Assembly: GCA_028751875.1 (NCBI GenBank) | Contig: CM054145.1 | Coordinates: forward strand, 9,968,967-10,032,966 | DNA from: Rapana venosa | Lineage: Eukaryota > Mollusca > Gastropoda > Neogastropoda > Muricidae | Direction of reading: 5' to 3' | DNA length: 64,000 bases | Part shown: piece after piece, positions 18,835 through 52,672 of the stretch | Layout: every line of letters starts with the position of its first letter | How positions within the stretch are numbered: position 1 is the first letter of the stretch | The notes under the pieces: generated by a model | Seen by the model: the letters and a program-made list of their open reading frames with translations, nothing else | What the model was told of the DNA's origin: nothing | Databases searched by the model: none | Position numbers and translations under genes: made by a program

Positions 18835-18840
18835 CTAATG
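18340..18840. repeat. 40-bp minisatellite built from the last coding codons
   Basis: About ten units of a 40-bp repeat (TAGCTCTTTGTATAATGTAA + CCCACATTTTCATTAAGCAT). Outer units at 18361, 18776 and 18833 retain TAATGCTTGAGGAGCTCTTT, which is the end of the coding sequence (minus strand AAA GAG CTC CTC AAG CAT TAG). The array thus grew from the stop-codon region into the 3' UTR. Confidence 0.9.
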
Positions 18841-22000: not shown

Positions 22001-25000
22001 AAGATGCCGGAGATGGAGGAGACTGATTGAAAGTAGGGACAGCTGTGAAGTGTAATGATGGAGGAAGATCCTAGGTAGGAAATAAGTGTGTTGTGAGGTA
22101 GGATTTGAAAGTGTCAAATGTCATTTTTCACACAAAAGAATACTGACATGATTTTTACACCACTCCTTATAAAGCCACACACCCTGAAGATTTTTACACA
22201 GCTCCCTATAAAGCCACAGGCCCTGAGGACTTTTGCACAGCTTCTTATGAAGCCATAGGCCCTGAAGACTTTTACACAGCTTCTTATGAAGCCATAGGCC
22301 CTGAAGAGTTTTACACAGCTTCTTATGAAGCCATAGGCCCTGAAGACTTTTACACAGCTTCTTATGAAGCCACAGGCCCTGAAGAGTTTTACACAGCTCC
22401 TTATGAAGCCACAGGCCCTGAGGATGTTTACACAGCTCCTTATAAAGCCACAGGCCCTGAGGATGTTTACACAGCTCCTTATAAAGCCACAGGCCCTGAG
22501 GATGTTTACACAGCTCCTTATAAAGCCATAGGCCCTGAGGATGTTTACACAGCTCCTTATAAAGCCATAGGCCCTGAGGATGTTTACACAGCTCCTTATA
22601 AAGCCATAGCCCTGAAGAGTCTTACACAGCTCCTTATGAAGCCATAGGCCCTGAAGATTTTTATATAGCTCCTTATGAAGCCATAGGCCCTGAGGATGTT
22701 TACACAGCTCTTTATGAAGCCACAGGTCCTGAAGATTTTTATACAGCTCTTTATGAAGCCACAGGTCCTGAAGACTTTTACACAAACTTATTGCAGCATG
22801 GAAGAAAACATCAAAACCCAGATCATCATGAACTGAGAAAACTCACCAGTTGGAGTCTTGTAGCGGACGGCAGGAGAGAGAGGCCCGAACCCTTTGGCAT
22901 TGCGGGCCTGAATCTTGAAGAAATACTTGGTGCTGGGGGACAGGTCTCGAACCGTCAGCCCCAACTGTTCTCCATGCACTGCCTCCACTAGCCAGTCACG
23001 TATTGGCTGTTTACGATGCGTGGATGAAAACACCAGATAGCCTGCGATAAAAAAGCAATTAAAAAAAACACCTCACACGAAGTGAAATCTGCTGTAACTT
23101 AAAGTGGTATACAAGATTAAGTGTATCCCAAATGCTTGCCTGTTATCTGTTACCCATTTCCATTGCCACAGTCTATGGGTAGGAGCTCCACATAATGCCA
23201 CCAAAGTTTACCATCTTCCTCTGTCTCTGCTGAGTTCTACAATCTCCCATATCCCTCCCAGACCTCAGAGACGTGGGCAATGTAGGATGTTGGTGGTCTG
23301 CCTAAAGTTTAGCCTTCTGGCTTCAGCCTTACCTCGGAGAAGTAAAATATTACTCTATTTCTCAGCAGAGTTCTCAAGTCTTCCACATCACCATAAGCAG
23401 GTAGAAAACTACGGGTCTCTGTGTCTTTTGCTATATTAGACCAGTTACATGGAATACGTACCAACTTTGAGAATCTGACATCCACCAAAGAGTCCTCTAC
23501 ATATAAGTCTTCAGCAGTTGATAGCAACAGAAAAGCATAGATTCCCACTTCAGTATTCCTTAGACTACGAATAAGATCTCATCACTTCATAGTTGCACAA
23601 TGGAGAAAATGAAAATCTGATCTAAAAAAACCCCTCAAAACAAAATCAACAGTAGTTAATAAATATATGTATACTATCAGGTGCACAAGTTCCAAGCTCT
23701 ACAGTTATATAACCAGTCTAAATGAGTGTTTGACAAAGGAGAAGAAGAAATAGACTCGGTCCACACTAAAACCACAGACAGGAGTAAAATCAAAGACATT
23801 CCCAAACATTGTGAACCCTGATGACACCCAATAACTGCTTACCTGTGATGACCCCATTAGACTTGACAGGGGGAGTCCAGGTGATCTTGGCCACAGTGGG
23901 GTCATCCTCACCCTGTGTGACACTGACATTGGTGGGGGCTGACTCAGGTGCTGTGGCAGACATCATCATCGTGACAGTGAGACATTGTCGTCATGACAGT
24001 GAGACATTGCCGTCATGACAGTGAGACATTGCCGTCATGACAGTGAGACATTGTCGTCATGACAGCGAGACATTGCCGTCATGGCAGTAAGGCGTTGTCA
24101 TGACAGTAAGGCATTGTCGTCATGGCAGTAAGGCATTGTTGTCATGGCAGTAAGGCATTGTCGTCATGACAGTGACACTGTCGCCACAACAGTGAGACAT
24201 TGTCGTCACGACAGTGAGACATTTTCGTCATGACAGAAGACATTTCCGTCATGACAGAAGACATTTCCGTCATGACAGTGAGACATTGCCGTCATGACAG
24301 TGAGACATTGCCATCATGACAGAAGACATTGCTGTCATGACAGCGAGACATTGCCATCATGACAGAAGACATTGCTGTCATGACAGCGAGACATTGTCGT
24401 CATGACAGTGAGACATCGTCATGACAGTGAGACATTGCCGTCATGGCAGTGAGACATTGCCGTCATGACAGTGATACATTGTTGTCATGACAGTGAGACA
24501 TTGCCGTCATGACAGTGAGACATTGTTGTCATGACAGAAGACATTGTCGTCCTGACAGTGAGACATTGTCGTCCTGACAGTGAGACATTGCCATCATGAC
24601 AGAAGACATTGCTGTCATGACAGCGAGACATTGTTGTCATGACAGTGAGACATTGCCGTCATGACAGTGAGACATTGCCGTCATGGCAGTGAGACATTGC
24701 CGTCATGACAAAGACACATTGTCGTCATGACAGAAGACATTTCCGTCATAACAGAAGACATTTCCGTCATGACAGTGAGACATTGCCGTCATGGCAGTGA
24801 GACATTGTCGTCATGACAGAAGACATTTCCGTCATGACAGAAGACATTTCCGTCATGACAGTGAGACATTGCCGTCATGACAAAGACACATTGTCGTCAT
24901 GACAGAAGACATTGCCGTCATGACAGTAAGACATTGTCATCACGACAGTGAGACATTGCCGTCATGACAGTGAGACATTGCCGTCATGACAGTGAGACAT

Positions 25001-31000: not shown

Positions 31001-31727
31001 ACCGTGACATTCCTCGGAACTGTCGGGGGCACTGCCAACAGTACACCAAGTACACACATATATATACTTATGAACATACCTATACAAATGTACATGTTTG
31101 ACAGCATATGCTAAAACACACCTCCTGTTTTCAGGTTCTGAGTTGTAAGGATTGATTGTTGTAATGAGTGAATTTGGATGGAATGCATATATTTACGCAA
31201 CATAACACACACACAACCACTCACACACACATGTGTGTACGCGTGCACACAGGCACAGACACCCTCACTCACTCACACACACACAGACACACTCATTCAC
31301 TCTCTCTCACACACACGCATGCACGCGCGCACACACACAAACATAAACACACACTATATCTATCTATCTATACACACACACGCTACCCATACAAAAAAGA
31401 AACAAATACACATATAGAAAAGATGCATTGTCAGGAGTGAACCTGGAAAGACATGAGCCACTAGTATGTGTGTGTTGTGGTAGTGGTAGTAGTAGTAGTA
31501 GTAGTAGAAGTAGTAGTAGTAGTTGTAGTAGTAGTAGTAGTAGTAGTAGTAGCAATAACAGCAGAAGTAGTAGTAGTAGCAGCAGTCGACAGTGTTGTAG
31601 TAGAAGTAGTAGTAGAAGTAGTGGCAGTCTTCACTGTTTCATATCTTTCCAACGTAAGTGGTAACAGACAACACTAAAACGTGAAAAATTAAGAGGACAG
31701 TATTTATAATAACAGAGGTATTAGAAA

Positions 31728-31772
<45 letters not shown>

Positions 31773-31773
31773 T

Positions 31774-31837
<64 letters not shown>

Positions 31838-31894: not shown

Positions 31895-31966
<72 letters not shown>

Positions 31967-35761: not shown

Positions 35762-35792
<31 letters not shown>

Positions 35793-41700: not shown

Positions 41701-42087
41701 TGCATATAGTTATATCATTAACTGTCTTCACTGGTACAATCCATCGCGTTCCCTTCATTCAGCCGCAGATATGTTGTGCTTTCAAACACCCAGATACAAA
41801 CAAACCGCTGTTGTCTGTCACTCTTTCTCTGTTTCTGGTCCAGCCACATGGAACAACCTCCCTCTCTCACTGCACCAAAAGCCTTCATTTGATACTTTCA
41901 AATCCAGCCACAAAACGCACTTATTCCTACCTGACACTTTCCCTCATATCTGTTTCTACTTTTTCAATGGCTACCTTCATCTCCACCACCCCACCTAAGC
42001 ATGTTGAGTGAATGTACTTTCTTTAATTTAACGTCTGTTCACTCAAGGTGATATTAGATAAAAGATAGTGTTACAATATATAGAGAA

Positions 42088-42118
<31 letters not shown>

Positions 42119-43690
42119 ACCTATTAGTGTCTGTGCATAAGATAAAAGAAAAAAATAATACAAAGAAATTATGGGAGGGCGCATTGAACAGCTTAAACCG
42201 CAGCAAGAACAATTACAAAAGTTTGCCAACAGGGCTTCTAACTAAACAACTAACTATCTCCAATATAACCATATTATCGGCCAAATAAATGTTCAAATGA
42301 CATATTTGAATGAATGTGCGCATGTGTGTGTGCATGCGTGTGAGTGTGTGTGTGTGTGTGCGTGCACGCGTGCATGCATGTGCACATGTGTATATATTTT
42401 ATATTTATTAATTCTAATATTTGTATACTTATAGACAGTTGCATGTGTTATAAATGATTTGAATGCAAGCGCTTCGGTTTGTTTACTTTACTTTTATTTA
42501 TTCCATACATTATTATCATAACCCCCCAAAACTCAGGCTAACAACAACAACAACAACATAAAAAGAAAGACGTTGATAAAAAGAAAAGCATCTGACCCGC
42601 GCTGTCTTCCACCCCTCCTCGCAGTTTGAGGACGGAGGAGTCTGTCCAGGACACCACCACGGCAGAGGCCGACACCGTCACTGCCTTCACTGCCACCGGC
42701 GCCAACAGCAGCTGTCCGGAATTGCCAGAGTCTGGCAAAGAAAACAGTTCCAGGTGAACCAGCTTTGTGTACAACTTTCCATTCTGGCTTGGGCCAAAAG
42801 CTGTGTTAGTTATTGATGTGAGCTAAAAACTTGAGCCCCACATTCATCATTGTCATCAACCATTACACCCAGTGGTGTGTAGGGCAGCAACAAAGCGCTT
42901 CCACTCCTGCCTATCCTGGGCCAACCTAGTCACTGATCCCCAAGAGTGCTGCATGGCCTTCATCTCACTTTCTACAGTCCTCCTCCACATTAAAATGCTA
43001 TAAAACCATTGTCTGTCACATGAGTGAAAATGCGTTGCGCTGCTGTTAAGCTCCTGAAGGCCAATATCTGACCTGCTATTCAGGGACAAACTCTTTGGAG
43101 CCCTTGAGGGCCTTCACCACATGGCAGCATTTGTCAGGGCCTCAGGAGTTTCTGTATGACGATGAAGAAGAAGAAATACTATAAAATTTTATACTAAGAT
43201 TGTCTTCAGTCTATGATAACATCCTGCACTGTCCTTTAAAGGAGAACAAAAATCCTCTGGAGTTGGAGTATGGCTGTCCAGAGGGAAAAAACAAGCCCCA
43301 ATTACTTCACCAGTTGCAGATGGATTAACATATTTTGATATTGTTGGGGATGGGCAGACCCCTTAACATAATCTCCTTGGTGTTTGTATGGAAGCAACAT
43401 AGCAGTGCTCCTGATTCTTGCAACTAAAAACAAAAGTTGGTAATACAATGTTACTGTTCCCATCATAAACAATAGCCTTCAAATACTGTACACTCATTAA
43501 AAAAAAACCAACTTTAAAAAATATTTATCACATCAATATTTCTCTGAGTGTATATGAAATCTCTAAGAAGAAGTAGAAAAATTTCTGTCATGCTTATAAT
43601 GGCTATTTCCAACATGAGGAACTTCTTTGCACACACACAGAGTACAGGCATGACTTGATAATGGCAGCTGCCAATATGGGCACTGTTTGG

Positions 43691-43721
<31 letters not shown>

Positions 43722-46700
43722 CTCACTTGCACACACCCCACACTGTTAAGACACTTGTACGTTACCTTTATCACGTCCAGTTCTGACTGTTTCATACAAA
43801 GGGCTGCCTAGGCCAGCTTTGTTCCTTGCTCGAACACTGACTATGTACTCTTGCTCTGGTTCTGCACAAGGGAGAGAGAGAGGAGAGTGACAGACTCACA
43901 ATATGTTAACATTTCTGCAGAGGCCAAATTAACCATAACATACAAAGGAGGAAGGTGGTAGGATGGTTTAGACGTTCGCCTGCCATCTTCCTTCTTACAA
44001 GGGGGACAGGGTAGCCTGGTGGTTAGAGTGATGCGTATTGCGCTCATGATCTGCTGACCCGGGTTTGAATCTCATTCAAGACGATTTCTCCTCTGGAGTT
44101 AACATCAGTGCCGACTCTGCTCCTCCTCCAAAACTCTTTCAAATGAGACTATAAACCAAGGTCCCATGTGCCAATGCACGCAGAACATCTTGTGCACACG
44201 TTAAACCCTCTTCTGCTTTTTGGAAGAGTAGGCTATTGTGGGAACGGATGGCAAAATTTACAAAACTGCATGCACACGGGGACAGGATGTAAAAAAAAGC
44301 ACATGAGTGTTTATTCCATTATCCTTGAAATAAAAGAACAAGATAAAATAAACAAAAATAAACAGAGGAATGCATAATGATGAAGAAAAAAATGTTTGCC
44401 ACAAATACAATGAACATTCTTACTACAAATTTTCCTTGACGTTATATTTAAGCCTTAGATGGTAAAATAGTGCAGCACTCAGACTCGAGCCAACAATAGT
44501 AGCTGAGCATTCAACGAAGAAGAAAGACTTGAGTAACATACTGAGGAATGTGCAAGATATTCTTTCATGCTTTCAAAGACAGATGAAATCTTATTTTGTG
44601 TATATATTTCATTAGCAAGCATCTAAAAAATCTTTTCTATTACATAGTTTTAGATAAATATACACCTTATTTTACAGATAAAAATACATGTAATTCGGTA
44701 GACAATGTAAAATTGTGTACCCCTCGTTTTGCTACTATATCAACTAATGCATTACCAAAAACACTAACATGAGAAGGCAGCCCAGAAAATGAATATATAT
44801 ACCAATTATGTTTATACAGTGTACCACGTGATTCATTTACTCAGATCAGGTTAGGTCAGATATTAGTAGTGCAAGTTTCTATGGCCTTTGGATGAGACTA
44901 TAAACCGAAGCCCCGTGTGCCAAGGCACGCAGAACATCTTGCGCACACGTTAAATCCTGTTCCGCTGTTTGTAAGAGTAGGCCATTATGTGCCGGTGGGA
45001 ACAGATGACAGAATTTACATAACCACATACACACGGGGACTGGATGTAAAAAAGCAATAAGTGCTTATTCCATTATCCTCAATAAAAAATTTTAAAATAA
45101 ATAAAAGAAAGAAAAAAGTAAGACACATGGAATCTTTACTACAAAAATTGAAACTTTAAACAAATTTACTGGGAGATTGACTGTGTAGTCTAAAGCAATA
45201 AACATGGTGACAAGTTCCGCACTAAGGAGTGTTATGTTTTGTATATCTGTACATGTGCGCACACTTACATGCAGATATGATATGTACATGTAAAAGCACA
45301 CACACAAAATCCCTATTGATGCATATCTTTAGGTTCTAGTTGTACAGACTGTAAATTCTGACAACTAGAGTGACTGATCACAAGACTCAGCAGGAAAAGT
45401 AAGCTACACAATAATGTTGAAAACGTGTCTCCAAAACTATAGGCTATGCATACTGTTCACAGCTGTAATCATACCAGTATGATGGATGGTATGGCTTAGT
45501 GGTTAAGACCATTCAACTTCAATCTCACGGGTCCATGAAATCAAGGGTTTGAGTCTCGGCAGTGTCTGGTGAATAAAGTTTGGGGATTTTTACGATCTCC
45601 CAGTCAACTTCAAGTACAGACCTGCCAATGCCTTGACTCCCTTCAGGTATATACACGTGCAGAAGATCAAATAAGCATGTTAAAGATCCTGTAACTCACG
45701 TCAGCATTCAAAGGGTTACAGAAACAGGAACATACCTAGCAAACATCCCCGAAGTTGGAATACGGCTACCTTCACGGTGGGCAAAGACGGTGGCATACAC
45801 AAAATCTTACCTTTGATGAACCTCAGAGCTCTAGCCAAGGAATAATAATGATTTTTTTTAAAAACCCAAAGAAAACATTACACAGAACATATTTTTCTGA
45901 CACTCATAAAGTCAAACTTTGTGAAAACCAAACAGTCGGAGACCCATCCATACCTAAGCCTTCGATGATGTAGTGAAGCACTGAGGCGTTGACCTGGACC
46001 TTGTAGACATCGGGGATGCTGATGCCATAGCCCACTTGGTAGCCCCGCACTGTCCCATGGTCAGGGGGCTTCCACGACACCTCTACCGAAGTGGTCAGTG
46101 GCCAGACCCGCATCTCTGTCAGCTTAGGAGGAGCTGGCTGAAAATCTGTTGAAAAGCCAGCATCCTCGCTAGCGCCTTCAGACGGCAAGTCTTGGTCCTT
46201 GACATTCTTTAACTTCAATGAACTAGCTATTCTGGCACAGTGGTTATAATAATAATAACAACAATAATGATGATGCTGATAATCATCATCATCATATTTG
46301 GCATTTTTACTACCCTGAATCTTGTAAAACAAAGAAATCAAAGCACTTGCATTCAAAACAAATCATTCACACACATGCGACCATTGACAAAAGATTAACA
46401 GATTTAAAACTGAGTATCGCTCTCATTCATACACACACACACACACACACACTGCTGACCCAGGTTCAAATCTCATTCAAGAGAATTTTTTCTCTGGAGT
46501 TAACATCAGTGCCGACTCCACTCTCCTCAAAACTTCTTCAGATGAGACTATAAACCGATGTCCTGTGTGCGAATGCACGCAGAACAGCTTGTGCACATGT
46601 TAAATCCTGTTCCGCTTTTTGGAAGAGTAGGCTATTGTGTGCCGGTGGGAACAGATGACAAAATTTACAAAACTGCACACACCTGGGGACTGGATGTAAA

Positions 46701-49700
46701 AAAGCACATGACTGCTTATTCTATTATCCTTGAAATAAAAGAATGAATAAATAAATAAATAAATCCAATTAAAATGAGTGCTCGGGAATCTAGCCCAGAG
46801 AAAACCCCAACCAAACCATAAAATAAAATAAAATAAAATGAAGAGCACTCACCATCCACGGGTCCTTTTTCTTTCTTGTGTTTCTTGCGATTCTTGTGCT
46901 TCTTCTTTTTCCCTCTGCCTTTTTTTCTGTGTGACTTGCCTTTGCTCTTCTTTCCTTTCTTTTTGTGAGGGCTGCACTGTCGAGTGTGCACTTTGTTCTT
47001 CTTGCACGACGAAGGACCCCGTTTCAAGTCCAAGGTTCGAACCTTCTTGCCCACGGCGGGATCGCAGTCACTCCATTTTCCTTTCTTGTACTTGCAGCGC
47101 TTGTCACCTGCAAGTTAAAAATCGATAAATAATCGAGCTGAAATGTGACGTTCCAGCACACAATGAGTCACACTGCACCAGAGGTAAGTTTTCAATTATT
47201 GGCATGTTGTTGTTCTGCAATAAAAAAGGCTGTTCAATACAAAAACCAGATTGAAAATGGGACAATTCTATGAAAAGTTACAACAAATTGAAATGGTAGC
47301 CTGTGGGAAGTGACAAAATGAGAAATTGACAAGTTTAGTTTCGTAATAGGTGGTCAGAATGAGGGCTTGGGTATTTTCAAACATGTTTTAAAGCAAAAGC
47401 AAACAAACTTCTGCTTTGATATTTCAACTTTTTATATTCTTTTCATTTTGAGGATTTTAATTTATTTATTCCTTTTTTTATATTCTTTTATATTGAGGAT
47501 AGGATGAGGGAATAAGCACTTGTGTGCTTTTTTACATCCAGTCCCCGTGTGTATGAAGTTTTGCACATTTTGTCATCTGTTCCCACTGGCACACAATGGC
47601 CTACTCTTATGAAAAGTGGAACAGGATTTAACACGTGCACAAGATGTTACACGTGCACAAGATGTTCTGTGTGCGTTCACACACGGGGCCTTGGTTTATG
47701 CTCTCGTCCGAAGGACTTTTGGGGAGAGTGGAGTCTGCACTGATGTTAACTCCAGGGGAAAATATCCCCTTGAACGGGAATCGAACCCGGGTCGTCAGAT
47801 TGCGAGTACAATGTTCTAACCACTAGGATATCCCGTCCCCCCCCCATATAGGATAATGGAAGAAGTACTCATGTGCTTTTATACATCGAGTCCTTGTGTG
47901 TATGCAGTTTTGTAAATTTTGTCATCCATTCCCACCGGCACACAATGGCCTACTCTTCTGAAAAGCGGAACGGGTTTTAACATTTGGGCAAGATGTTCTG
48001 TAAGCGTTTGCACACAGGACCTCAGTTTCTAGTCTCATCTAAAGGACTTTGTGGTAGAAAAGTGGCTATAGTTTAGTAATTAGTGGCTATAGTTTAGTGA
48101 TCAATAAAAATCTCAAAATCAACACCCTGACTCCCACCTGCCTTCAAATAGCTCCTAGCAGAAAAGTGGGTCTGGTGCAAAGCGACTCATTTTGTGGTGG
48201 AGTGTCACAAATCTTGTCAGTGAACCTAACCACTGGATTTTGTCAGACATTCTTTTTTGCACATCTCACTGCAAACACATCAACACAAAACAAACAACCT
48301 AATATCCTGTCCAAAACCAAAACAAGACTTTCTTTAACCCTTCCACTGCTGGATATAATTATTGGCGCTCACAGGAATTGCACTTAAAACCAAGAAATTT
48401 TAGCGGTGGCTACCTTGTTCTGTTTTAGGGTTTTTACACGCTTATGATTAACACTAGATAGGTAAACCTATACATTTTTGGAAAGTAGAGACAATGTAGA
48501 ATGTGATACAAAAAACAAAAAAGACATTACCTAGTATGTAGCAGGAGATATCCCACAAATTGTATTGAAAAAACTCCCTGACCAGTAAGCCACCTCACCC
48601 TCTACTTTTCATCAACTACACCCCTTTCATGGCAGAGACACAGAACAGAATGAACAACAAGGCAAAGCAACATGTGTTAAAGGCATTAGAAGTGTGAGAT
48701 AAGACTCCACTTCATTCAGCATCTTAGGTTGGTTACTAGCCTATCACTTCCACAACTGACTCCTTTAGGGTAGTGTCAACAACATTCCTTTCCAGATCAT
48801 CATCACTCCTAGTAACCCTAATCACACAAAGAACTGGAAGTTAGACACTTGAGGGACCCTACCAAGTGAAAAGGAGGCACTTTTCCCTAAAGTTACAATA
48901 ATATGAACCTGATGTTGAACCTGACTTATGCAAGACCACGATCGTGGCCCATCGCAGTCTACAGGGAAGCCACGATCGTGGCCCATCGTGGCCCATCGCG
49001 CTGTACGGGTTAAATTACAGCTCCAAAGTGATGTAATTGTGACTGAAAACTGTACTTTTTACCAAATCAAAAGGAGCATTTGGCATATACTGACAAATTC
49101 CACCAAAATACCAGAAAAATAGTCATTCTTTTATATTGTTTCTTTGCTTTTATTTTTAAAAATGCACTAATCATTCTAAAAAAATATCTTCTTCTCTCCT
49201 TTACTTTCTCAACTTTAGGTCAGTTACATACTTTTGTTTGGTATTTCTGATTTCCAGTTTGTTTAGGTCTATCTTGTGTCATCTCTTTATAATTTATCTC
49301 ATAGAAATTTCTCAATTTAGGCTCACCGTCATACTCTCTGTATGTAATTTATACAGAGAGTATACAGAGAGCATGACAACGAGCACACACACATTCATTT
49401 GTAATCAACTGTCCCTAACATATCTCTCTAGTACACGACAATATGACATATAACCAACAATGTCTTTCTCACAAAAATTTTTTTTTTTTTACCTTTTCTT
49501 TTTCCGTGTTTCTTCTTTTTTTTGCTGCCGTTTCTCCGTTTCTCAGCCCCCTTGCCACAGTTCTTGCTCTCCACTTCATTGTTGCCACACTGGTTGGACT
49601 TTTTGGAATGAAGCTCTAATGTGCGAGTGCGTGTTTGGGTAACAGGGTCACAGTCACTCCAGCTGCTCACCGGTACATATATGCAGCCTGAAATATTAAA

Positions 49701-51844
49701 CAGCAACAAAAAGCTACAAACACTTAGATGGCTTGCTTTTGTAATTTGAAAAAAAAAAATCATACATTTGGAAAGAATTTCCTCTGTGGGGATGCTGGGG
49801 GCCTGTCAGTATAAAAAGCATCCCCACCTTCTGGAAATTCCGTGCTAGGATTTTCCTCTTTTCTATCCCTCTCTTTGTTTCTGCCTTGTTCCTTTTCTTC
49901 CCATCACCTTCTTCGTGTCTGTTTTCTGCATTCTTGGTCCATTCTCCTGCTTTTTTCCCCAGAAAGTCTTAAAAGATTATGATTCTCTCCCATAGATAAG
50001 TTGGATGCACTGGGACTGATTTGTCAGGCACCTAACGGCAGCGCAATGTCTTTTCGCTCATATGACAGAAAATAGTAGTTGATGTCTAAGCTTTCAACAG
50101 AGAAGAACATAGAATTTAAGGTAAAATGCCTCGATTCAGTAATGGCAGTGGAAAATATGAAAGGCTACAAAATAATAATTTTATCAATATCATGACTAGG
50201 ATTCTTACCATATAAAGAAAACTAAGATAACCTCTATTTGAAAAGAAAATGAACAGACATAATATCCCATCTTTATATCCAATCTTACTATATATGCCTT
50301 CTGGAGCCCAACTGATACCTCTTGGGAAGCTTCATTGTGATTCTGATTAGTGTCAGATGGAAAGTTACATTCATCTATATTGCTACCAAATCTAAATTCT
50401 ATAGTAGTGATACTTTAGAAGAAAATCATAATCAATGATGTTAATACACTCAAACACATGTGCACACAGACAAACAAACACACACACACACACACTTAGT
50501 TGCACATGCCTGTGCGCTTATGCCCATACACAAATGAACACACACACAAGGCTCGACAATTTGATCAAGAAAAAAAATACAGTCTCAAATAAGCAATTGC
50601 ATAACCAGCTTATATCCTATATAACATTATAGAGTACAAAAGCTAATGCTAGCAGAAAAACGAGCCAATACTACACAATGTCGCCACAAATGTCAACTCC
50701 GGCAGAAATATGATATATACAACAAAATGTATCATTTACTTTCACACTTTTCACCAGAAACAGGATACTACAAAGCTCACCATTTATTTCCACTCCAGCT
50801 GCTTTGCATGGCTTGGTGATCACTTTAGGATCTGGGCAGCCCTTTTTGCCTTTGCGCAGGGGAAGCGACTTGGTCTTCACTTTCAATGCTGGGTCACAGG
50901 GAGACCACTCCACACCTTTCTTGTTATATTTGCAACCTGAAATTTACAGTAAGCAAAGATTGATAAAGAAAAAAAAGTCTTTTTTGTAGAATTCTATGGT
51001 CACTTTTATTACTTACAGTTGCAGACAGGAAAAAAAGAAATGGTGGTGCTGCTCTTGTGGTGACACGCTCTCCCTGGGCTGAGCAGCCCGAATTTCACGT
51101 AGAGAAATCTGCTGTGACTCGAACTGTTACAGTGGCATGAAAACAAAAACGAAAATGAAAGCAACTCTATCTCAGAGTTCTTACGTCATTCTCAGCAAGT
51201 AACAAACTGTACACAAGTCTCTCGTAGAGCTGTTCTGTGTTCATGGGCCTGTTTGTTTCTTTAAATATATTTGATTTTTCATGATGATGATTCTCCTTTG
51301 AGTCAAAACAGCCCTTGCATCCACAAAATATATATACAAATGTGGTACAGAGTTGTTGTTTTTTTAAATAACCCACACTTACTAATTTGACGAATCTAAA
51401 AAGATCTTAGCTGTTTATCATATAGTCTTTTTTTTTTTAATAAATCAAACTGACAAGTATAAATCATCTAATCAAATTGAAACTCAGATCCTTCTGTGCT
51501 GGAAACTTCATCTTGTCTTTATCATCTAAAAAGAAGTCTGAATGAAAAAATAATTTTGGTTTAAACAAAATTTTATTCCAAAATAATCATACATATAGAC
51601 ATTTACAATATTTATTTATTTATACCACTTTAAGTCACGAGATTTCTCTGCGTGAAATTCGGGCTGCTCTCCCCGGGGAGAGCACGTCGCCACAAGAGCA
51701 GCGCCACCCCTTTTTTTTTTTTTTGGTCTGCAACTGTATTTCTTTCCCTATCAGAGTGGCTTTTTTCTAAGAATTTTGCCAGGGACAACTCTCTTGTTGC
51801 CGTGGGTTCTTTTTCGTGCGCTGCATAATTTTCTGTAACACACG

Positions 51845-51875
<31 letters not shown>

Positions 51876-52672
51876 TAGCGCCCAGACCACCACTCATGGT
51901 CTAATGGATGGGGGAAAAGTTTCGGGCCCAGACGGGATACGAACCCGGACTTTTCGCTTTCTAGACAGGCGCGTTACCTCTAGACCACCGATCCACCGAT
52001 CCACTAGAGCAACAAGGAATCATTTTCAACTAAAAAACACAAAAAGAACACTTCTTAGTTTCTGCAGATTCTCTTTGTTTTCAGACAGTTAAATACAGAC
52101 AGGCATATATCAACAAAATAAATCAAATGAGAAAAAAAACGTTTTTTTAAGCTGCAGAACTTCTGACGAAAATCAGCATCTAATTTCTAAATAAAAATTG
52201 CAATACAAAGTAAAACTTGGTACATTTTACTCTTTTATTTCGAGGATAATGGAATAAGCACTCATGTGCTTTTTTTCAACCAGTCCCCTTGTGTATGCAG
52301 TTTTGTAAATTTTGTCATCCGTTCCCGTTCCCACCAGCACAAACTGGCCATTTGAATATGTTTCTGTCCATACAGATTCTGTGTCTACAAATGTGTGTTT
52401 ATACATGTACAGATGCAAGTACGCATATGTTTTACAATTTACATGTGTGTGTGTGCATGTGTGTGTGAGTGTGTGCACAAATTTGAGTCTATCAATCCAG
52501 TATTATACCGTACAGTCTCAAACAAATTACCATCCATTCGTATTTATAACAGATCATTCATTCAACATGCCCATTACAATCACTCACGTCTGGAGCTGGA
52601 GGCAGCGGCTGAGGCAGTCACAGCAACCAGCAGCAGCAGCAGCAGAGCAGACGACAAAGTAGCTTGCACCAT
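18835..52672 (-). CDS. Secreted pleiotrophin/midkine-FN3 chimeric protein (1063 aa, 19 coding exons)
   Basis: Exons are listed separately; all 18 coding junctions are phase 1 and the joined frame is 3192 bases. Domains: signal peptide 1-22; three PTN/MK C-domain-like modules at about 30-75, 82-130 and 150-190, each with C..Y..W..CD and a later C plus terminal C pattern, followed in modules 2 and 3 by lysine-rich tails (heparin-binding by analogy with midkine); eight FN3 domains at about 231-326, 327-440, 441-541, 542-642, 643-740, 741-859, 860-960 and 961-1055. FN3 1-3 resemble DCC/neogenin FN4-FN6. Most FN3 domains are split by an intron at the same place (108-base first half, ~195-base second half). 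There is no Ig domain, membrane helix or cytoplasmic tail, so it is predicted to be extracellular, perhaps a heparan-sulfate-bound matrix or guidance ligand (inference). Fusion of two genes by misprediction is the main alternative. A 5' UTR exon must exist upstream of 52699. Confidence 0.85.
19100..19190 (-). mobile_element. Hairpin-ended repeat (family B), distal fragment
   Basis: Starts TCTTCTTCTTCGTCGAACG on the plus strand and includes CGCTGCCGTTAAGCGCCTGA and CAGGCCCAGCGCATCTGA. This is the GAAGAA-tailed end of family B, lying 63 bp upstream of exon 19. Confidence 0.8.
19411..20336 (+). mobile_element. RTE-like LINE, 5'-truncated copy 2
   Basis: Nearly identical to the copy at 14251-15217: I count about four single-base differences in ~920 bp. 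The open frame to 20321 carries SPVLFNLFLENIMRE, FADDIDLM, YLGATLTKDG and WFGHVTRHNTLP, and the element ends in (TGA)n. It begins 43 bp further into the element than copy 1. Target-site duplication is weak (possibly TTATAT). It lies in the intron between exons 18 and 19, opposite to the gene. Confidence 0.9.
20551..20690. repeat. CA-rich microsatellite
   Basis: CACACA with GATTACA and ATAATCA interruptions. No other feature between the LINE and the following minisatellite. Confidence 0.9.
20930..21668. repeat. ~40-bp minisatellite carrying copies of the exon-18 splice donor
   Basis: About 17-18 units of (CA)n + CTTCACCCTGCTGACTTACA + GGCTATCT. On the minus strand each unit reads AGATAGCCTgtaagtcagca, the same as the true exon 18 end and its donor at 21670/21669. 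Unit length varies with the CA stretch (roughly 37-45 bp). Confidence 0.92.
21670..21777 (-). CDS. Midkine/FN3 gene exon 18 (first half of FN3-8)
   Basis: 108 bases, identical in length and phase to exons 9, 11, 13 and 16. It encodes VEDVTVVASPDDPYSAVVSW with the conserved B-strand Trp, then QPPSEQRGQIA. Acceptor TTTTAAAACAG has a weak pyrimidine tract; donor CCT|GTAAGT is strong and is the copied motif of the adjoining array. Confidence 0.88.
22140..22790. repeat. 39-bp minisatellite in intron 17
   Basis: About 17 units of CTTATGAAGCCATAGGCCCT + GAAGA.TTTTACACAGCTC. The unit is a multiple of three, which keeps a 223-residue minus-strand frame open (..LWLHKELYKNLQG.. repeated); I regard that as an artefact. 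The array ends 57 bp downstream of the exon 17 donor. Confidence 0.92.
22847..23041 (-). CDS. Midkine/FN3 gene exon 17 (second half of FN3-7)
   Basis: 195 bases. GYLVFSSTHRKQ..DWLVEAVHGEQLGL..LSPSTKYFFKIQARN..GFGPLSPAV: the DWV..VVGNRL and YYFKIQARN pattern of neogenin FN6. Acceptor TTATCGCAG, donor ACTG|GTGAGT. Confidence 0.92.
23042..23842. other. Intron 16-17 sequence without a recognised feature
   Basis: Contains a short family-E-like fragment near 23080-23100 (GAAATCTGCTGTAACT). No further exon was found here; the frame-compatible exons on either side make a complete FN3 domain. Confidence 0.5.
23843..23950 (-). CDS. Midkine/FN3 gene exon 16 (first half of FN3-7)
   Basis: 108 bases. 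APESAPTNVSVTQG..TVAKITWTPPVKSNGVITG, the proline-rich start, B-strand Trp and NG.ITG end of a neogenin FN6-like domain. Donor ACAG|GTAAGC. The acceptor CTGCCACAG has a poor pyrimidine tract because a minisatellite begins just upstream. Confidence 0.92.
23968..25135. repeat. ~22-bp minisatellite with a palindromic core
   Basis: Over 50 units of GTCATGACAGTGAGACATTG with variants AGAAGACATTTCC and AGTAAGGCATTG. Each unit contains the near-palindrome TGTCATGACA. There are no unique spacers, so it is not a CRISPR array. It begins about 17 bp upstream of exon 16. Confidence 0.92.
25270..25600 (-). mobile_element. SINE family E copy
   Basis: Shares with 51640-51975: CACTTTGA.CTGTGGCAGATTTCTCTGC, GCCACAAGAGCAGC, a CTCCCTGTCT..GAACTATT block, ACTCCCTTGCAGCCATAGGATC and AAGACTAGCACACAGACCAC. 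Confidence 0.65.
25691..25880 (+). mobile_element. tRNA/5S-headed SINE (family A), 3'-truncated
   Basis: GGGGACGGGATAGCTCAGTG, then CAAAGTTAAGCAGCATCAAG (5S-like), TTGGATGGGTGACCG (5S box-C-like), CAGCTGTAAATGGGTACCTG and AGGGTCAGGGAAGGTAAAGC. It joins directly to a family-B fragment near 25880. Confidence 0.88.
25881..25975 (-). mobile_element. Hairpin-ended repeat (family B), hairpin-end fragment
   Basis: AATTTCCAGAAGGTGGGGAT, GCTATTTCTACTGACAGGCC and GGCATCCCCACAGGG. Oriented head to head with the next family-B copy 37 bp away. Confidence 0.8.
26012..26332 (+). mobile_element. Hairpin-ended repeat (family B), full length
   Basis: CCCCCATGGGACGCCAGGGG..CTGTCAGTATAAACAGCATCC at the left, GGGCCTGACTTGTCAGG in the middle and CATTCGATGAAGAAGAA at the right. 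About 320 bp. Confidence 0.85.
26755..27081 (+). mobile_element. Hairpin-ended repeat (family B), full length
   Basis: Begins CCCCCTGAGAATGCCAGGGG, contains TTGTTTCTGCCTTGTTCC and GGGCCTGATCTGTCGGGCGC, and ends GAGCGTTCGACAAAGAAGAT. Confidence 0.85.
27105..27398 (-). mobile_element. tRNA/5S-headed SINE (family A), full length
   Basis: The minus strand starts GACGGGGTAGCTCAGTGGTC and ends with the GACTCC..TTTACCTTACC tail at 27105. All family blocks are present, so this copy is a good template for a consensus (about 294 bp). Confidence 0.88.
27475..27831 (-). CDS. Midkine/FN3 gene exon 15 (complete FN3-6)
   Basis: 357 bases, the only FN3 held in one exon. NSGQLKAPTDLRVYV..NSAVMSWRDP, YTVRYRAFLNDT.., LVSLEPNTRYQFSVRLNRGD and SDWSEPNVNKTFEAG: it matches neogenin FN5 features (YYTVRW, L.P.T.YEFSV, STWS). 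It carries a Ser-rich loop insertion. Acceptor CGCTTCAG, donor GCTG|GTGAGT. Confidence 0.93.
28321..28388. repeat. (CA)n microsatellite
   Basis: CACACA with ATGCAC interruptions. A family-D-like tail precedes it at 27930-28000. Confidence 0.9.
28891..29577 (-). mobile_element. tRNA/5S-headed SINE (family A) split by a nested RTE-like insertion
   Basis: SINE blocks run 28891-29078 and resume 29464-29577, ending at the GGGGGACGGGATAGCTCAGT head. The insert is flanked by the duplicated SINE bases ACTGAAGCCAA (29068-29078 and 29464-29474). Confidence 0.88.
29079..29463 (+). mobile_element. RTE-like element with internal deletion, nested in a SINE
   Basis: 385 bp flanked by an 11-bp duplication. 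The 5' part (CCCCGTGGGACTCCTGGGGA.., GGCATGTCGTAAGAGGCGAC) recurs alone at 32804-32992. The 3' part encodes GHAALL../KAMQHSWGSVTRLAQDRQEW, an RTE-type ORF C-terminus, and ends TGATGATGATG. The middle of a longer LINE is missing, so this is a non-autonomous derivative. Confidence 0.85.
29621..29806 (-). CDS. Midkine/FN3 gene exon 14 (second half of FN3-5)
   Basis: 186 bases. GYVVSYREEHSLQWSAEGV..LILPSLQPGTTYAVKVQVRT..WPASPVVTYTTPEG with the L.PGT.Y.VKV motif. Acceptor TTACACAG; donor GAAG|GTTGGT is weaker than the others. Confidence 0.9.
29835..30040 (-). mobile_element. Terminal-inverted-repeat MITE (family I), truncated
   Basis: Starts TGTGACGCTCCATCACATAG, the family-I terminal repeat, and matches 37119-37542 through GACAAAATGAGAAATTG; the other end is replaced by a family-D SINE. 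It lies 28 bp upstream of exon 14. Strand is arbitrary. Confidence 0.75.
30059..30362 (-). mobile_element. tRNA-headed SINE (family D)
   Basis: The minus strand carries a B-box-like GGGTTCGATTCCCGTTCAAG, CTCTGGAGTTAACATTAGTG, GATGAGACTATAAACCGAGG, GGCCATTGTGTGCCGGTGGG and a TTCCATATTCCTCGATATAA end. The A-box end near 30362 is replaced by other sequence. Confidence 0.85.
30478..30662 (-). mobile_element. Hairpin-ended repeat (family B), partial
   Basis: ATATTCAGAAGGTGGGGATG..GGCATCCCCACAGGG hairpin end plus the purine-rich middle; distal end missing. Confidence 0.8.
30924..31031 (-). CDS. Midkine/FN3 gene exon 13 (first half of FN3-5)
   Basis: 108 bases. VPPTVPRNVTVTQFAELAGA, VIVSWLPPQSMGESISG, with B-strand Trp and the proline-rich start. 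Acceptor TTGGCAG; a second in-frame AG (CCGACAG) 9 bases on could also serve. Donor AGTG|GTGCGT. Confidence 0.9.
31200..31380. repeat. CA-rich microsatellite block
   Basis: CACACA with short TCATTCACTCTCT and (CTAT)n interruptions. Confidence 0.9.
31478..31630. repeat. (AGT)n trinucleotide repeat
   Basis: AGT/AGA triplets that yield poly-Ser, poly-Val or poly-Thr frames on either strand; intronic, so not coding. Confidence 0.92.
31730..31976. repeat. (GT)n microsatellite, ~250 bp
   Basis: Long GT array with GGT and TATG interruptions; with 32100-32137 and 32205-32272 it makes intron 12 the most GT-rich part of the window. Confidence 0.95.
32152..32207 (-). mobile_element. Family-D SINE tail fragment
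   Basis: TTTTATATCGAGGATAATGG and AATAAGCACTTAAG, then CATCCAGT, the family-D 3' end, flanked on both sides by GT microsatellites. Confidence 0.7.
32395..32529. repeat. ~46-bp tandem repeat, three units
   Basis: AGCTTTACATCTGTCACATT + TCTTTATTTCGTTCTCTTCA + GCTAT, three copies. It ends 35 bp from the exon 12 donor. Confidence 0.92.
32564..32758 (-). CDS. Midkine/FN3 gene exon 12 (second half of FN3-4)
   Basis: 195 bases, neogenin FN6-like: GYVIYYTDDPNLPERSWVVQ, VRGDQLSNTVTDL, SARYFFKLQARNKAGAGPAT. Acceptor CTGTCCACAG, donor GACG|GTGAGA. High GC contrasts with the flanking intron. Confidence 0.94.
32804..32992 (+). mobile_element. RTE-like element 5' segment
   Basis: About 95% identical by eye to 29079-29270: CCCCGTGGGACTCCTGGGGT, GCGAGCATTGCAAGAATAGG, CCCTCCAACCAGGCATGTCG, CAGCAACAGAGAAAA. 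It stops where a family-A SINE begins, so it is either 3'-truncated or fused to it. Confidence 0.75.
32995..33193 (-). mobile_element. tRNA/5S-headed SINE (family A), 3'-truncated
   Basis: The minus strand has the GGGGACGGGAGAGCTCAGTG head at 33193, the diverged 5S-like segment and the body to GGAGAGGAGACGGGC. Confidence 0.82.
33605..33860. repeat. ~22-bp minisatellite
   Basis: About 12 units of CACATACTACAAAGTGATAA with an optional AGT, in intron 11. Confidence 0.9.
34300..34390 (+). mobile_element. tRNA/5S-headed SINE (family A), head only
   Basis: GGACAGGATAGCTCAGTGGT, CAAAGTTAAGCAGCGTCGAG and GTGGATGGGTGACAG; the SINE body is absent. It preserves the tRNA-like and 5S-like parts alone. 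Confidence 0.82.
34456..34747 (+). mobile_element. tRNA/5S-headed SINE (family A), full length
   Basis: From GGGGACGGGTTAGCTCAGTG through the 5S-like GGTTAAGCAGCATCGAGCAC and GACGGGTGACCG, to CCACATGGGTTATGGGACAC and CTTTACC. About 292 bp. Confidence 0.88.
34910..35786 (+). mobile_element. ~877-bp composite insertion with tRNA-like head, A tail and 17-bp target duplication
   Basis: Flanked by TATATACATGCAGTACA at 34893-34909 and 35787-35803. It starts with GCCGCCATGGCGCAGTGGTT, an A box (GTGGTTAGCGCC) and a B box (GGTTCGATTCCC). It has an internal A run at 35281-35290 and then a GC-rich segment (GGTGGTGTCCTGCG.., GGCGGCCGGATAGTG). It ends with ten A and (TA)n. It may be two elements joined or one long SINE or LINE derivative. 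Its right duplication ends 3 bp from the exon 11 donor. Confidence 0.75.
35807..35914 (-). CDS. Midkine/FN3 gene exon 11 (first half of FN3-4)
   Basis: 108 bases. VLPSVPLNLTSVGLDHNPSA, VMLRWQRPDKVLEPITG with B-strand Trp and the .PITG end. Acceptor GATTTTCAG, donor ACAG|GTCTGT. Confidence 0.92.
36047..36282 (-). mobile_element. tRNA/5S-headed SINE (family A) with internal deletion
   Basis: Complete 3' end (GTGTCCAATAACCTATGTGG) and body; about 60 bp of the 5S-like segment and most of the tRNA-like head are missing. Confidence 0.82.
36343..36780 (-). mobile_element. Non-LTR retrotransposon C-terminal fragment with 15-bp target duplication
   Basis: Flanked by ACCAACTTCCAGCCT (36328-36342 and 36781-36795). 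The minus-strand frame encodes METWVFTKTVKRLLKSCENR, WEDRITNEELW and RLRWFGHVQQKADH, the region after the RT domain of RTE/CR1-type LINEs. It ends in (GAA)n, like family B. 5' truncated, so not mobile by itself. Confidence 0.85.
36874..37068 (-). CDS. Midkine/FN3 gene exon 10 (second half of FN3-3)
   Basis: 195 bases, strongly neogenin FN6-like: GYMIFYSKDPILPDAAWATS, VITGNRLSTVIKDLDPNSAY, FFKIQARNKEGVGPTTSPV. Acceptor TTCAG after a GT/CA-rich tract; donor GATG|GTGAGA. Confidence 0.95.
37119..37542 (-). mobile_element. Terminal-inverted-repeat MITE (family I), full length
   Basis: Left end TG.AACGCTCCACCACAAAAT and right end ATTTCGTGGTGGAGTGTCACA are inverted repeats of about 30 bp including GAGTC(G/A)C. 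No transposase. It matches 29835-30040 and 47144-48209. It lies 50 bp upstream of exon 10. Superfamily unassigned; no clear TA duplication was seen. Confidence 0.85.
37613..37900 (+). mobile_element. tRNA/5S-headed SINE (family A), full length
   Basis: GGGGACAGGATAGCTCAGTG, GTTAAGTAGCATTGAGCATG, GTGGATGGGTGACCG, CAGCTGTAAATGGATACCTG and a GGTTATAACACCTTTACCTT end. Confidence 0.87.
38211..38318 (-). CDS. Midkine/FN3 gene exon 9 (first half of FN3-3)
   Basis: 108 bases. PSSKPADFTADISQSDPTSV, TLTWQPPEEPNGPITG: the W.PP.E.NG.ITG pattern of neogenin FN6. Acceptor TGTTACAG, donor ACAG|GTCAGT. Confidence 0.94.
38389..38707 (+). mobile_element. Hairpin-ended repeat (family B), full length
   Basis: CCCCCGTGAGGATGCTGGGG, CTGTCAGTATAAATATCATC, GGGCCTGATCTGTCAGGCGT and GAGCGTTCGAAGAAGGAG. 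About 319 bp. Confidence 0.86.
39247..40318. repeat. 36-bp minisatellite in intron 8, starting at the exon 8 donor
   Basis: About 29 units of CAAACCAAGCGGTTTTCCCA + TTTTCAACACATTCAG, with CACCATGTTCAG variants. Because 36 is a multiple of three, long frames stay open on both strands (404 residues plus, 252 minus). The last unit runs to within about 12 bases of the exon 8 splice junction. Confidence 0.95.
40330..40536 (-). CDS. Midkine/FN3 gene exon 8 (second half of FN3-2)
   Basis: 207 bases, neogenin FN5-like: KMYTVRYMQLNHLSKKDKPT, LQVDGLMPYTRFEFAVRVSQ, GSARSVWSMAVTNTTFASG, including the WSM..(N/G)TTF end. Acceptor TCTATCAG, donor TCGG|GTGAGA. Confidence 0.95.
40585..41155 (-). mobile_element. 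tRNA/5S-headed SINE (family A) split by a nested RTE-like insertion
   Basis: SINE blocks 40585-40780 and 41051-41155 are separated by a LINE fragment; the SINE bases CCAAGGCACA are duplicated at 40771-40780 and 41051-41060. Confidence 0.88.
40781..41050 (-). mobile_element. RTE-like LINE 3' end, nested in a SINE
   Basis: The minus-strand frame encodes DWAHPPKRP / HILRRDPQSITRIALHWTPE, GRRKKGRPKAMWRRTVESEM, KAMQHSWGSVTRLAQDRQEW: the typical C-terminus of an RTE ORF2. The element ends (TGATGATGATG) at 40781. 10-bp target duplication; 5' truncated at 270 bp. Confidence 0.88.
41210..41335 (-). mobile_element. SINE family F tail fragment
   Basis: TCAGCTAGAGCTCCATGG, ATAGCGAGACTTTGTGTGTG and GCCCACCATTAAAGCAGC match the family-F tail in reverse. 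Confidence 0.55.
41374..41629 (-). mobile_element. tRNA-headed SINE (family D)
   Basis: The minus strand has GGGGGACAGGATAGCTTAGT, TGGAGTTGATATG, GATGAGACTATAAACGAAGC and GGCCATTTTTGTGCTGGTAGG. 3' tail missing. Confidence 0.78.
42597..42731 (-). CDS. Midkine/FN3 gene exon 7 (first half of FN3-2)
   Basis: 135 bases. DSGNSGQLLLAPVAVKAVTV, SASAVVVSWTDSSVLKLRGG: B-strand Trp followed by D-S as in neogenin FN5 (TWADNS). Acceptor TTTGCCAG, donor GCGG|GTCAGA. Confidence 0.92.
42844..42991 (-). mobile_element. RTE-like LINE 3' end fragment
   Basis: The minus-strand frame has MWRRTVESEMKAMQHSWGSV and RQEWKRFVAALHTTGCNG, the ORF end shared with 29079-29463 and 40781-41050; a degenerate ATGA tail. A short family-B piece follows at 43004-43062. 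Confidence 0.82.
43766..43861 (-). CDS. Midkine/FN3 gene exon 6 (second half of FN3-1)
   Basis: 96 bases. PEQEYIVSVRARNKAGLGSP, LYETVRTGRDK, matching the HYVITLKA.N..GEG.PLYE end of neogenin FN4. Acceptor CCCTTGTGCAG, donor AAAG|GTAACG. Confidence 0.93.
44001..44342 (+). mobile_element. tRNA-headed SINE (family D), full length
   Basis: GGGGGACAGGGTAGCCTGGT with A-box-like TAGCCTGGTGGTTAGAG, B-box-like GGGTTTGAATCTCATTC, then the complete body and a CTTGAAATAAAAGAACAAG tail. About 342 bp. A 45-bp family-F head fragment precedes it (43950-43990). Confidence 0.88.
44480..44525 (+). mobile_element. Hairpin-ended repeat (family B), distal tip
   Basis: GCCAACAATAGTAGCTGAGC and ATTCAACGAAGAAGAA only. 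Confidence 0.55.
44878..45095 (+). mobile_element. tRNA-headed SINE (family D), 5'-truncated
   Basis: GGATGAGACTATAAACCGAA through GTGCTTATTCCATTATCCTC and an A-rich tail. Confidence 0.85.
45483..45845 (+). mobile_element. tRNA-headed SINE family J with family-F-like tail
   Basis: Head GGTATGGCTTAGTGGTTAAG and B-box-like GGGTTTGAGTCTCGG; middle shared with 5546-5830; from 45745 the tail CCGAAGTTGGAATACGGCTA, TCACGGTGGGCAAAGACGGT matches family F, so two head types share one 3' tail. Confidence 0.72.
45954..46145 (-). CDS. Midkine/FN3 gene exon 5 (first half of FN3-1)
   Basis: 192 bases. APPKLTEMRVWPLTTSVEVS, WKPPDHGTVRGYQVGYGISI, PDVYKVQVNASVLHYIIEGL: the V.GY.(I/V)GYGI..P....V.V....YYIE.L string is characteristic of DCC/neogenin FN4. 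Acceptor GGCTTTTCAACAG, donor TTAG|GTATGG. This exon links the midkine part (exon 4 upstream, same phase) to the FN3 part. Confidence 0.93.
46453..46745 (+). mobile_element. tRNA-headed SINE (family D), head-truncated
   Basis: Starts at the B-box-like CCCAGGTTCAAATCTCATTC, complete to CTTGAAATAAAAGAATGAAT. Confidence 0.87.
46853..47107 (-). CDS. Midkine/FN3 gene exon 4 (third PTN/MK module and Lys-rich tail)
   Basis: 255 bases. CKYKKGKWSDCDPAVGKKVR, TLDLKRGPSSCKKNKVHTRQ, C: the closest of the three to the midkine/pleiotrophin C-domain. It is followed by ~45 residues rich in Lys, Arg and His (KKKGKKSKGKSHRKKGRGKK..), a heparin-binding type linker. Acceptor ACTTGCAG, donor GATG|GTGAGT. Confidence 0.95.
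47484..47841 (-). mobile_element. tRNA-headed SINE (family D), full length
   Basis: The minus strand runs from GGGGGGACGGGATATCCTAG with GTGGTTAGAACATTGTACTC and GGGTTCGATTCCCGTTCAAG to the TATCCTCAATATAAAAGAAT tail. It contains a 15-bp local duplication of the ACACGTGCACAAGATGTT type. Confidence 0.9.
47846..48052 (-). mobile_element. tRNA-headed SINE (family D), head-truncated
   Basis: Second copy in tandem with the previous one, same orientation: CACAAAGTCCTTTAGATGAG.. to TTCCATTATCCTATATGG. Confidence 0.82.
48338..49010. mobile_element. piggyBac-like non-autonomous element
   Basis: Bounded by TTAA at 48334-48337 and 49011-49014, the piggyBac target duplication. Ends are imperfect inverted repeats: CCCTTCCACTGCTGG at left, and CCCGTACAGCGCGAT read inward from the right. 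Subterminal repeats of CCACGATCGTGGCCCATCG lie near the right end. No transposase frame, so a MITE. In the intron between exons 3 and 4. Confidence 0.75.
49493..49687 (-). CDS. Midkine/FN3 gene exon 3 (second PTN/MK module)
   Basis: 195 bases. GCIYVPVSSWSDCDPVTQTR, TRTLELHSKKSNQCGNNEVE, SKNC, then a basic tail KRRNGSKKKKKHGKRK. Same C..W..CDP...C...C spacing as modules 1 and 3. Acceptor AATATTTCAG; donor AAAG|GTAAAA beside an A run. Confidence 0.93.
49783..50107 (+). mobile_element. Hairpin-ended repeat (family B), full length
   Basis: CTGTGGGGATGCTGGGGGCC, GTATAAAAAGCATCCCCACC, GGACTGATTTGTCAGGCACC and a CTTTCAACAGAGAAGAAC end. About 325 bp. Confidence 0.86.
50108..50780. other. Intron 2 sequence without a recognised feature
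   Basis: AT-rich, with a short CA-rich patch at 50450-50550. No exon or known repeat family seen. Confidence 0.5.
50781..50936 (-). CDS. Midkine/FN3 gene exon 2 (first PTN/MK module)
   Basis: 156 bases. CKYNKKGVEWSPCDPALKVK, TKSLPLRKGKKGCPDPKVIT, KPCKAAG: the CKY...W..CD....K.....L......C.....(T)KPC pattern of the midkine/pleiotrophin C-domain. Acceptor AAATTTCAG, donor AATG|GTGAGC. Confidence 0.95.
51045..51125 (+). mobile_element. SINE family E fragment
   Basis: TGCTGCTCTTGTGGTGACAC, CCCTGGGCTGAGCAGCCCGA, ATTTCACGTAGAGAAATCTG: reverse complement of the start of the copy at 51640. Confidence 0.7.
51640..51975 (-). mobile_element. tRNA-headed SINE (family E), near full length
   Basis: The minus strand starts near 51985 with GGTCTAGAGGTAACGCGCCT (A-box-like) and a B box GGGTTCGTATCCCGTC, then ATTAGACCATGAGTGGTGGT, GATGAGACGATAAACCGAGG and a CTCCCCGGGGAGAGCA hairpin before the AAATCTC end. 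Confidence 0.82.
52230..52350 (-). mobile_element. Family-D SINE tail fragment
   Basis: TTTTATTTCGAGGATAATGG, AATAAGCACTCATGTGC, CAGTCCCCTTGTGTATGCAG and a CCCACCAGCACAAACTGGCC stop. Confidence 0.82.
52588..52672 (-). CDS. Midkine/FN3 gene exon 1 (start and signal peptide)
   Basis: ATG at 52672-52670. MVQATLSSALLLLLLVAVTA then SAAASSSR: a short n-region, a Leu-rich hydrophobic core and an Ala-x-Ala cleavage site (likely after residue 22). Donor AGAC|GTGAGT. An acceptor TTGCAG at 52700 opens this exon, and an in-frame upstream ATG at 52699 runs into TAG after five codons, so 52672 is the start. Confidence 0.9.

Follow-up and report, generated by a model that had tools for sequence, protein, structure and literature searches.

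Background

Does a single gene of the gastropod Rapana venosa join the midkine/pleiotrophin (PTN/MK) family and the neogenin/DCC family of guidance receptors in one secreted protein, and, if so, what might such a protein do? A sequence-only reading of the 64,000-nucleotide stretch of DNA analysed here (the window) had proposed such a chimera, with three PTN/MK modules followed by eight FN3 domains. Midkine, pleiotrophin and the Drosophila Miple proteins are described as small, and Miple1/2, which are basic, as binding heparin in vitro (PMC4224452). For neogenin, one structural account gives FN4 as the main netrin interface, FN5 as a second one and FN5-6 as the RGM site (PMC8063088).

Results and discussion

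One minus-strand gene of 19 coding exons

Combining open frames with splice sites gave a minus-strand gene model spanning 52672 to 18835 (Table 1). Its 19 coding exons are joined by 18 junctions, all of them in phase 1, into a spliced frame of 1063 codons, and the coding sequence of 3,192 bases is spread over a genomic span of 33,838 bases. Splice scans gave further candidate exons, and the chain was picked by domain likeness together with the coordinates of the sequence-only reading; exons 1, 14 and 19 were set by eye, and the chain was afterwards checked against relatives. The earlier model of 19 exons, 1063 codons and phase-1 junctions could be rebuilt in this way, down to the end of exon 4 at 46853 and the start of exon 5 at 46145. 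Its splice sites had been called good, which is true of the exon 4 donor (10.0 in a splice scan) and too generous for some others, the acceptors of exons 5 and 16 being modest (4.7 and 2.4 with a home-made matrix).

Independent support for the model is provided by proteins of Littorina saxatilis and Batillaria attramentaria, each of which matches 18 of the 19 exons at the predicted positions when compared with the window by tblastn. The E-values range from 4.2e-38 to 7.4e-07, the weakest being that of exon 13 with Batillaria. Among tblastn matches below 1e-3, none to exon 1 was obtained with these two proteins or with a third relative, P0003 (see below). As a chance control, 50 shuffled versions of the Littorina protein, the only one shuffled, gave no match below 1e-6, and the reversed Littorina protein reached 8.3e-06 at best. 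Extra exons beyond 18.8-51 kb were sought with the same three proteins (E <1e-3) and rejected, the only candidates being low-complexity Lys matches at 56-58 kb that are no better than the reversed control.

Table 1. Predicted gene features, by position in the window
Feature	Position	Strand	Assignment and evidence
Exon 1	52588..52672	-	Start codon and signal-peptide-like stretch MVQATLSSALLLLLLVAVTASA; hydropathy peak
Exon 2	50781..50936	-	PTN/MK module 1, Cys 30, 42, 62, 72; PTN_MK_C E 1.4e-09
Exon 3	49493..49687	-	PTN/MK module 2, Cys 82, 93, 114, 124, and Lys-rich linker; PTN_MK_C E 4.6e-10
Exon 4	46853..47107	-	PTN/MK module 3, Cys 150, 160, 180, 190, and Lys/Arg tail; PTN_MK_C E 2.7e-07
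Exons 5 (46145-45954) and 6 (43861-43766)	43766..46145	-	FN3 D1, neogenin FN4 type; tree clade with NEO FN4 100/99
Exons 7 (42731-42597) and 8 (40536-40330)	40330..42731	-	FN3 D2, neogenin/DCC FN5 type; tree clade with NEO/DCC FN5 100/99
Exons 9 (38318-38211) and 10 (37068-36874)	36874..38318	-	FN3 D3, FN6 type; structure search and tree
Exons 11 (35914-35807) and 12 (32758-32564)	32564..35914	-	FN3 D4, FN6 type; structure search and tree
Exons 13 (31031-30924) and 14 (29806-29621)	29621..31031	-	FN3 D5, divergent FN6 type; structure search and tree
Exon 15	27475..27831	-	FN3 D6, FN5 type, single exon; 1x5j neogenin E 1.6e-05 and tree
Exons 16 (23950-23843) and 17 (23041-22847)	22847..23950	-	FN3 D7, FN6 type; 1x5k neogenin 2e-26 and tree
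Exons 18 (21777-21670) and 19 (19037-18835, stop TAG 18837-18835)	18835..21777	-	FN3 D8, FN6 type by best score; protein end ...PKELLKH
Candidate poly(A) signal AATAAA	18190..18195	-	About 640 bases past the stop

At the 5' end, an AG acceptor-like site lies 27 bases upstream of the exon 1 ATG and may mark an upstream 5'UTR exon. At the 3' end, the candidate signal is weak poly(A) evidence when taken alone, because AATAAA occurs 33 times on the minus strand between 17400 and 53000.

Several minisatellites adjoin the exons. That at 18382-18861 on the minus strand consists of about 10 copies of a 40-base unit similar to the final coding bases, from which it would appear that the array arose by expansion of the 3' end of exon 19 together with its stop codon. 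Others, whose units measure 22 to 65 bases, sit directly next to exon 8 (39244-40315, staying open in frame past the donor), exon 16 (23958-25133), exon 17 (22150-22784) and exon 18 (20929-21678, overlapping its last bases). Elsewhere in the window, two minus-strand open frames with NHL repeats (3435-4076 and 5203-5541; Pfam PF01436) are probably exons of a downstream NHL-repeat gene, and a 341-aa open frame on the plus strand (14181-15206) carrying RVT_1, a reverse transcriptase domain (1.2e-16), is probably a retroelement fragment. Rfam returned nothing at gathering scores on the window.

Relatives of the fusion in other gastropods

A first protein search listed 41 proteins, six of which (P0001-P0006) were aligned to the window protein. 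The closest among the matches listed is the Littorina protein, a database model named 'neogenin-like' (P0001; 69% identity over 98%), and the Batillaria hypothetical protein BaRGS_00015767 (P0002) has 64% identity over 99%. P0003 is an uninterrupted frame of 1216 aa (3,651 bases) in a contig of 3922 bases, where the window gene has 18 introns; the contig is contiguous as a cDNA would be, and it may also be a processed copy. P0003 is 81% identical (867/1067) to the Elysia chlorotica protein. The remaining sequences are shorter: P0004 is marked partial and begins at the third module, the Elysia chlorotica model (P0005) begins within the Lys-rich linker, P0006 ends early in the FN3 part, and the Elysia marginata 'neogenin' model covers the PTN modules and the first FN3 domains.

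The sequence-only reading had proposed a domain search on the joined protein and a look for the same architecture in related genomes. Pfam recognizes both families on the window protein, matching PTN_MK_C over three stretches (7e-22) and fn3 over eight (2.6e-91). At E 1e-5 it finds fn3 in all six relatives and PTN_MK_C in five (P0005 being the exception), and these five carry both. The window, Littorina and Batillaria proteins further share a signal-peptide-like start, three four-Cys modules, a first FN3 domain of FN4 type and the lack of a membrane anchor. As Littorina and Batillaria belong to the Caenogastropoda and Elysia to the Sacoglossa within the Heterobranchia, the PTN/MK-FN3 join appears to be common to caenogastropods and a heterobranch group.

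Since the join recurs in Littorina, Batillaria, sacoglossan relatives and the P0003 frame, it is very unlikely that the model wrongly merges a gene for a midkine-like factor (exons 1-4) with an adjacent one for a fragment of an FN3 receptor (exons 5-19). Each half does have its own recognisable relatives, the exon 5 acceptor is moderate and the Elysia chlorotica model starts in the linker, but the Littorina and Batillaria proteins and the single frame of the P0003 contig run through the junction, exon 4 has a strong donor, neither AATAAA nor ATTAAA occurs in the 707 bases of the intron that follows it (AGTAAA occurs once), and no Met lies in the open frame that precedes exon 5. The claim of a single-gene chimera is thereby upheld.

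In protein searches that need shared exact words, the matches of the same architecture were gastropod proteins and P0003. The first search and that with the alignment each scored only about 8,000 candidates; the alignment listed 49 proteins, including only four of the six relatives already known, and the PTN part alone returned one protein from 4465 candidates, missing P0002 and P0003. Because known relatives were missed, the fusion may extend beyond gastropods. No mollusc neogenin proper was retrieved among the protein-search matches.

A basic N-terminal part with three PTN/MK modules

Each of the three modules, scanned singly, exceeds the Pfam curated cut-off for PTN_MK_C. The sequence-only reading was right about their number and wrong about their signature, which is not a literal Cys-Trp-Cys; they are four-Cys C-domain modules of the pattern C-x(9-11)-C-x(19-20)-C-x9-C, in which W-x2 precedes the second Cys. 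None of the 12 module cysteines is missing from Littorina, Batillaria or P0003. A search of solved structures with the PTN part gave weak matches to chains of pleiotrophin and midkine (best E 0.012), and Pfam returned no family match to a PTN/MK N-domain up to E 1 on the window protein.

The Lys-rich tails that had been reported are evident in the linker of exon 3 and after the last Cys of module 3, where 22 of the 45 residues, counted into exon 5, are Lys or Arg. With 70 Lys/Arg within the first 240 residues, the basic N-terminal part resembles the Miple proteins, and by analogy with these we infer that it holds the protein on heparan-sulfate proteoglycans.

An FN3 array of FN4, FN5 and FN6 types

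The eight fn3 stretches bear out the number of FN3 domains first proposed; seven of the domains are encoded by two exons each and D6 by one. The likeness to DCC/neogenin also proved specific. D1-D2-D3 align in order with neogenin FN4-FN5-FN6 in 7ndg, a netrin/RGM complex structure, at 2e-56, with an identity of D1-D3 to NEO/DCC FN4-6 of 34-44%. In single-domain searches, the top matches of D4 and D8 are neogenin or DCC chains, with the alignment falling on FN6. The matches of D6 and D7 are to 1x5j and 1x5k, which we take to be neogenin FN5 and FN6, and for D5 two titin chains score over neogenin. In the structure searches, among them those with D1-D3 and D4, the neogenin/DCC chains 1x5h, 1x5f and 2ed7, presumably FN3 domains other than FN4-6, score lower.

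A maximum-likelihood tree of 38 domains, with neogenin FN4-6 and DCC FN5-6 as its only references and FN1-3 absent, places D1 with NEO FN4 and D2 with NEO/DCC FN5 and puts D6 on the FN5 side of its deepest split (100/100). D3, D4, D5 and D7 form one group with NEO/DCC FN6 at 87/88, a support too low for the tool's star mark. D8 is not part of this group, and its best pairwise reference is NEO FN6 (136 vs 60 for FN4). Taken together, the array reads as FN4-FN5-FN6-FN6-FN6-FN5-FN6-FN6, with D5 and D8 the least firm. P0003 has nine FN3 domains, whose best pairwise scores give the types 4-5-6-6-5-6-5-6-6; in the tree, H3, H4 and H6 are long rows and H8 groups with FN4.

Pfam and the tree revealed neither the N-terminal Ig domains nor FN1-3 of neogenin/DCC in the window protein: two Ig-named Pfam matches overlap FN3 domains, and the first FN3 domain is of FN4 type. 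On the window protein the NDNF FN3 model of Pfam scores above its cut-off (2.8e-09), as do several other FN3 models. A structure model of the Littorina protein, built with 6 sequences, is of low confidence (mean pLDDT 65.9, pTM 0.28) and matches the neogenin chains of the netrin complexes 7ne1 and 7ndg with 36% identity over 309 and 313 columns, at ranks 20 and 30. Its top fold match by E-value is the titin-containing entry 8q6t, which is expected because the model is an FN3 chain.

A probably secreted product

Both ends of the frame fit the secretion that had been proposed. Exon 1 encodes a signal-peptide-like stretch with a hydropathy peak, and the frame ends after D8 with no membrane helix or hydrophobic tail by hydropathy; the C-termini of P0001-P0005 likewise lie at PKELL or within 5 residues of it. 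The hydropathy maximum outside the signal peptide (2.01 at aa 335-353) was considered as a hidden membrane anchor and rejected: it lies within an FN3 domain, and the matching FN3-2 stretch has 0.98 in Littorina, although 1.73 in Batillaria. The window protein is thus probably secreted. Read-through past the exon 4 donor (46716-46852, minus strand) would run on for about 45 residues, most of them hydrophobic, to a stop; intron retention there, yielding a short form that has only the PTN part and a membrane-like tail, is a pure possibility.

What the protein might do

The array has the look of a guidance receptor's netrin/RGM-binding end that has been multiplied and set on a basic, probably heparin-binding tether. 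The reading that we favour, with confidence a little short of even, is that of a secreted binder of netrin- or RGM-type ligands held by heparan sulfate. The basic PTN/MK part would tether the protein to heparan-sulfate proteoglycans, the FN4-FN5-FN6 unit would bind netrin- or RGM-type ligands outside the cell, and the protein would store them, present them or compete for them at cell surfaces and in the matrix. As to origin, exon shuffling between phase-1 introns would have joined PTN/MK exons to the FN4-6 exons of a neogenin-type gene, the FN5 and FN6 units being duplicated after the join. More tentatively, the protein could be a conserved gastropod 'receptor-turned-regulator', in which several copies of the netrin/RGM end of neogenin are attached to heparan sulfate through midkine modules and control the place and amount of netrin/RGM that cells encounter. 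If so, the FN5-FN6-type pairs, three in the sacoglossan-like form and two in that of the window, would give multivalency. Were netrin or RGM bound, this would be a natural matrix-tethered regulator built of receptor parts, making it testable how domain shuffling lets a lineage rewire guidance signalling. Counting against a binder are the modest identity of D1-D3 to NEO/DCC FN4-6, given above, and the fact that FN3 folds bind many partners; the ligand, if any, may differ between lineages.

Conservation bears on this unevenly. Against Littorina, D1 is kept at 88%, D3 at 86%, D4 at 78% and D2 at 77%, the PTN modules at 67-71%, D6-D8 at 67-68% and D5 at 50%; against Batillaria, D1 is kept at 88% and D3 at 84%, these two being the best kept in both comparisons, which may reflect fold packing. 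Against P0003, D1 is kept at 53%, D6 at 50%, D3 at 38% and D2 at 33%, and the three PTN modules at 48% (23/48), 53% (25/47) and 35%. D1 is thus the best-kept FN3 domain, or level with the best, in all three comparisons, and the FN4-6 unit (D1-D3) as a whole is not specially kept in P0003. Because FN4-6 does not stand out as a unit in the latter comparison, the binder reading is weakened and both of the following rivals gain.

The main rival, which we regard as possible, is a structural extracellular-matrix or shell-matrix protein whose FN3 array serves as an adhesive rod or spacer and has lost the binding of guidance ligands. FN3 arrays and basic tails are frequent in matrix proteins, D5-D8 are less conserved than D1-D4 relative to Littorina (50-68% vs 77-88%), and P0003 shows weak retention of D2-D3. 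Such a role sits less easily with the receptor order of the FN4, FN5 and FN6 types at the start of the array, or with the retention of D1, the netrin LN-binding type. No link to shell proteomes emerged, none of the 10 literature matches listed out of 38 mentioning pleiotrophin.

It is unlikely that the product is instead growth-factor-like, its PTN/MK modules signalling via proteoglycan or phosphatase receptors and its FN3 part adding only length, valency or targeting. The complete retention of the module cysteines in Littorina, Batillaria and P0003 would suit this role, as would the place of modules 1 and 2 (about 50%) among the stretches best kept in P0003; relative to Littorina, however, the modules are less kept than D1-D4, and an N-domain match is lacking.

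Comparison with known systems

What is new here is that two known families are combined in a conserved chimera whose FN4-6 array has been reordered and multiplied, the proteins themselves being already in databases. Two signalling families are joined in one probably extracellular molecule of caenogastropods and a heterobranch group. Open-licence literature searches on the family pair, molluscs and gastropods gave no description of a PTN/MK-FN3 fusion among their top matches, and to that extent the earlier statement that no described protein joins the two stands.

With midkine/pleiotrophin and Miple1/2 the window protein shares a signal-peptide-like start, PTN/MK C-domain modules and Lys-rich tails; it differs in having three C-type modules with no N-type match and about 830 extra FN3 residues, and at 1063 aa it lies outside the small size of that family. 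Anosmin-1 and NDNF are secreted heparan-sulfate-binding FN3 proteins in neuronal guidance, and Anosmin-1 carries a WAP module; to our knowledge, neither carries PTN/MK modules.

With neogenin/DCC the likeness lies in D1-D2-D3, which follow the receptor order and are succeeded by more FN5/FN6-type copies. The Ig domains, FN1-3, transmembrane helix and cytoplasmic tail of the receptors were not found in the predicted window protein, which instead has PTN/MK modules replacing the N-terminal half, and duplicated FN5/FN6 units. The gastropod relatives come closest, the Littorina and Batillaria proteins having the same architecture, P0003, close to Elysia, having nine FN3 domains against eight, and the 657-aa 'neogenin' of Elysia marginata having the PTN modules and first FN3 domains. 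Databases call the fusion 'neogenin-like' or 'FN3 domain-containing', names that omit the PTN/MK part in Littorina, Batillaria and Elysia marginata alike, so that a protein labelled 'neogenin' in these genomes need not be the receptor.
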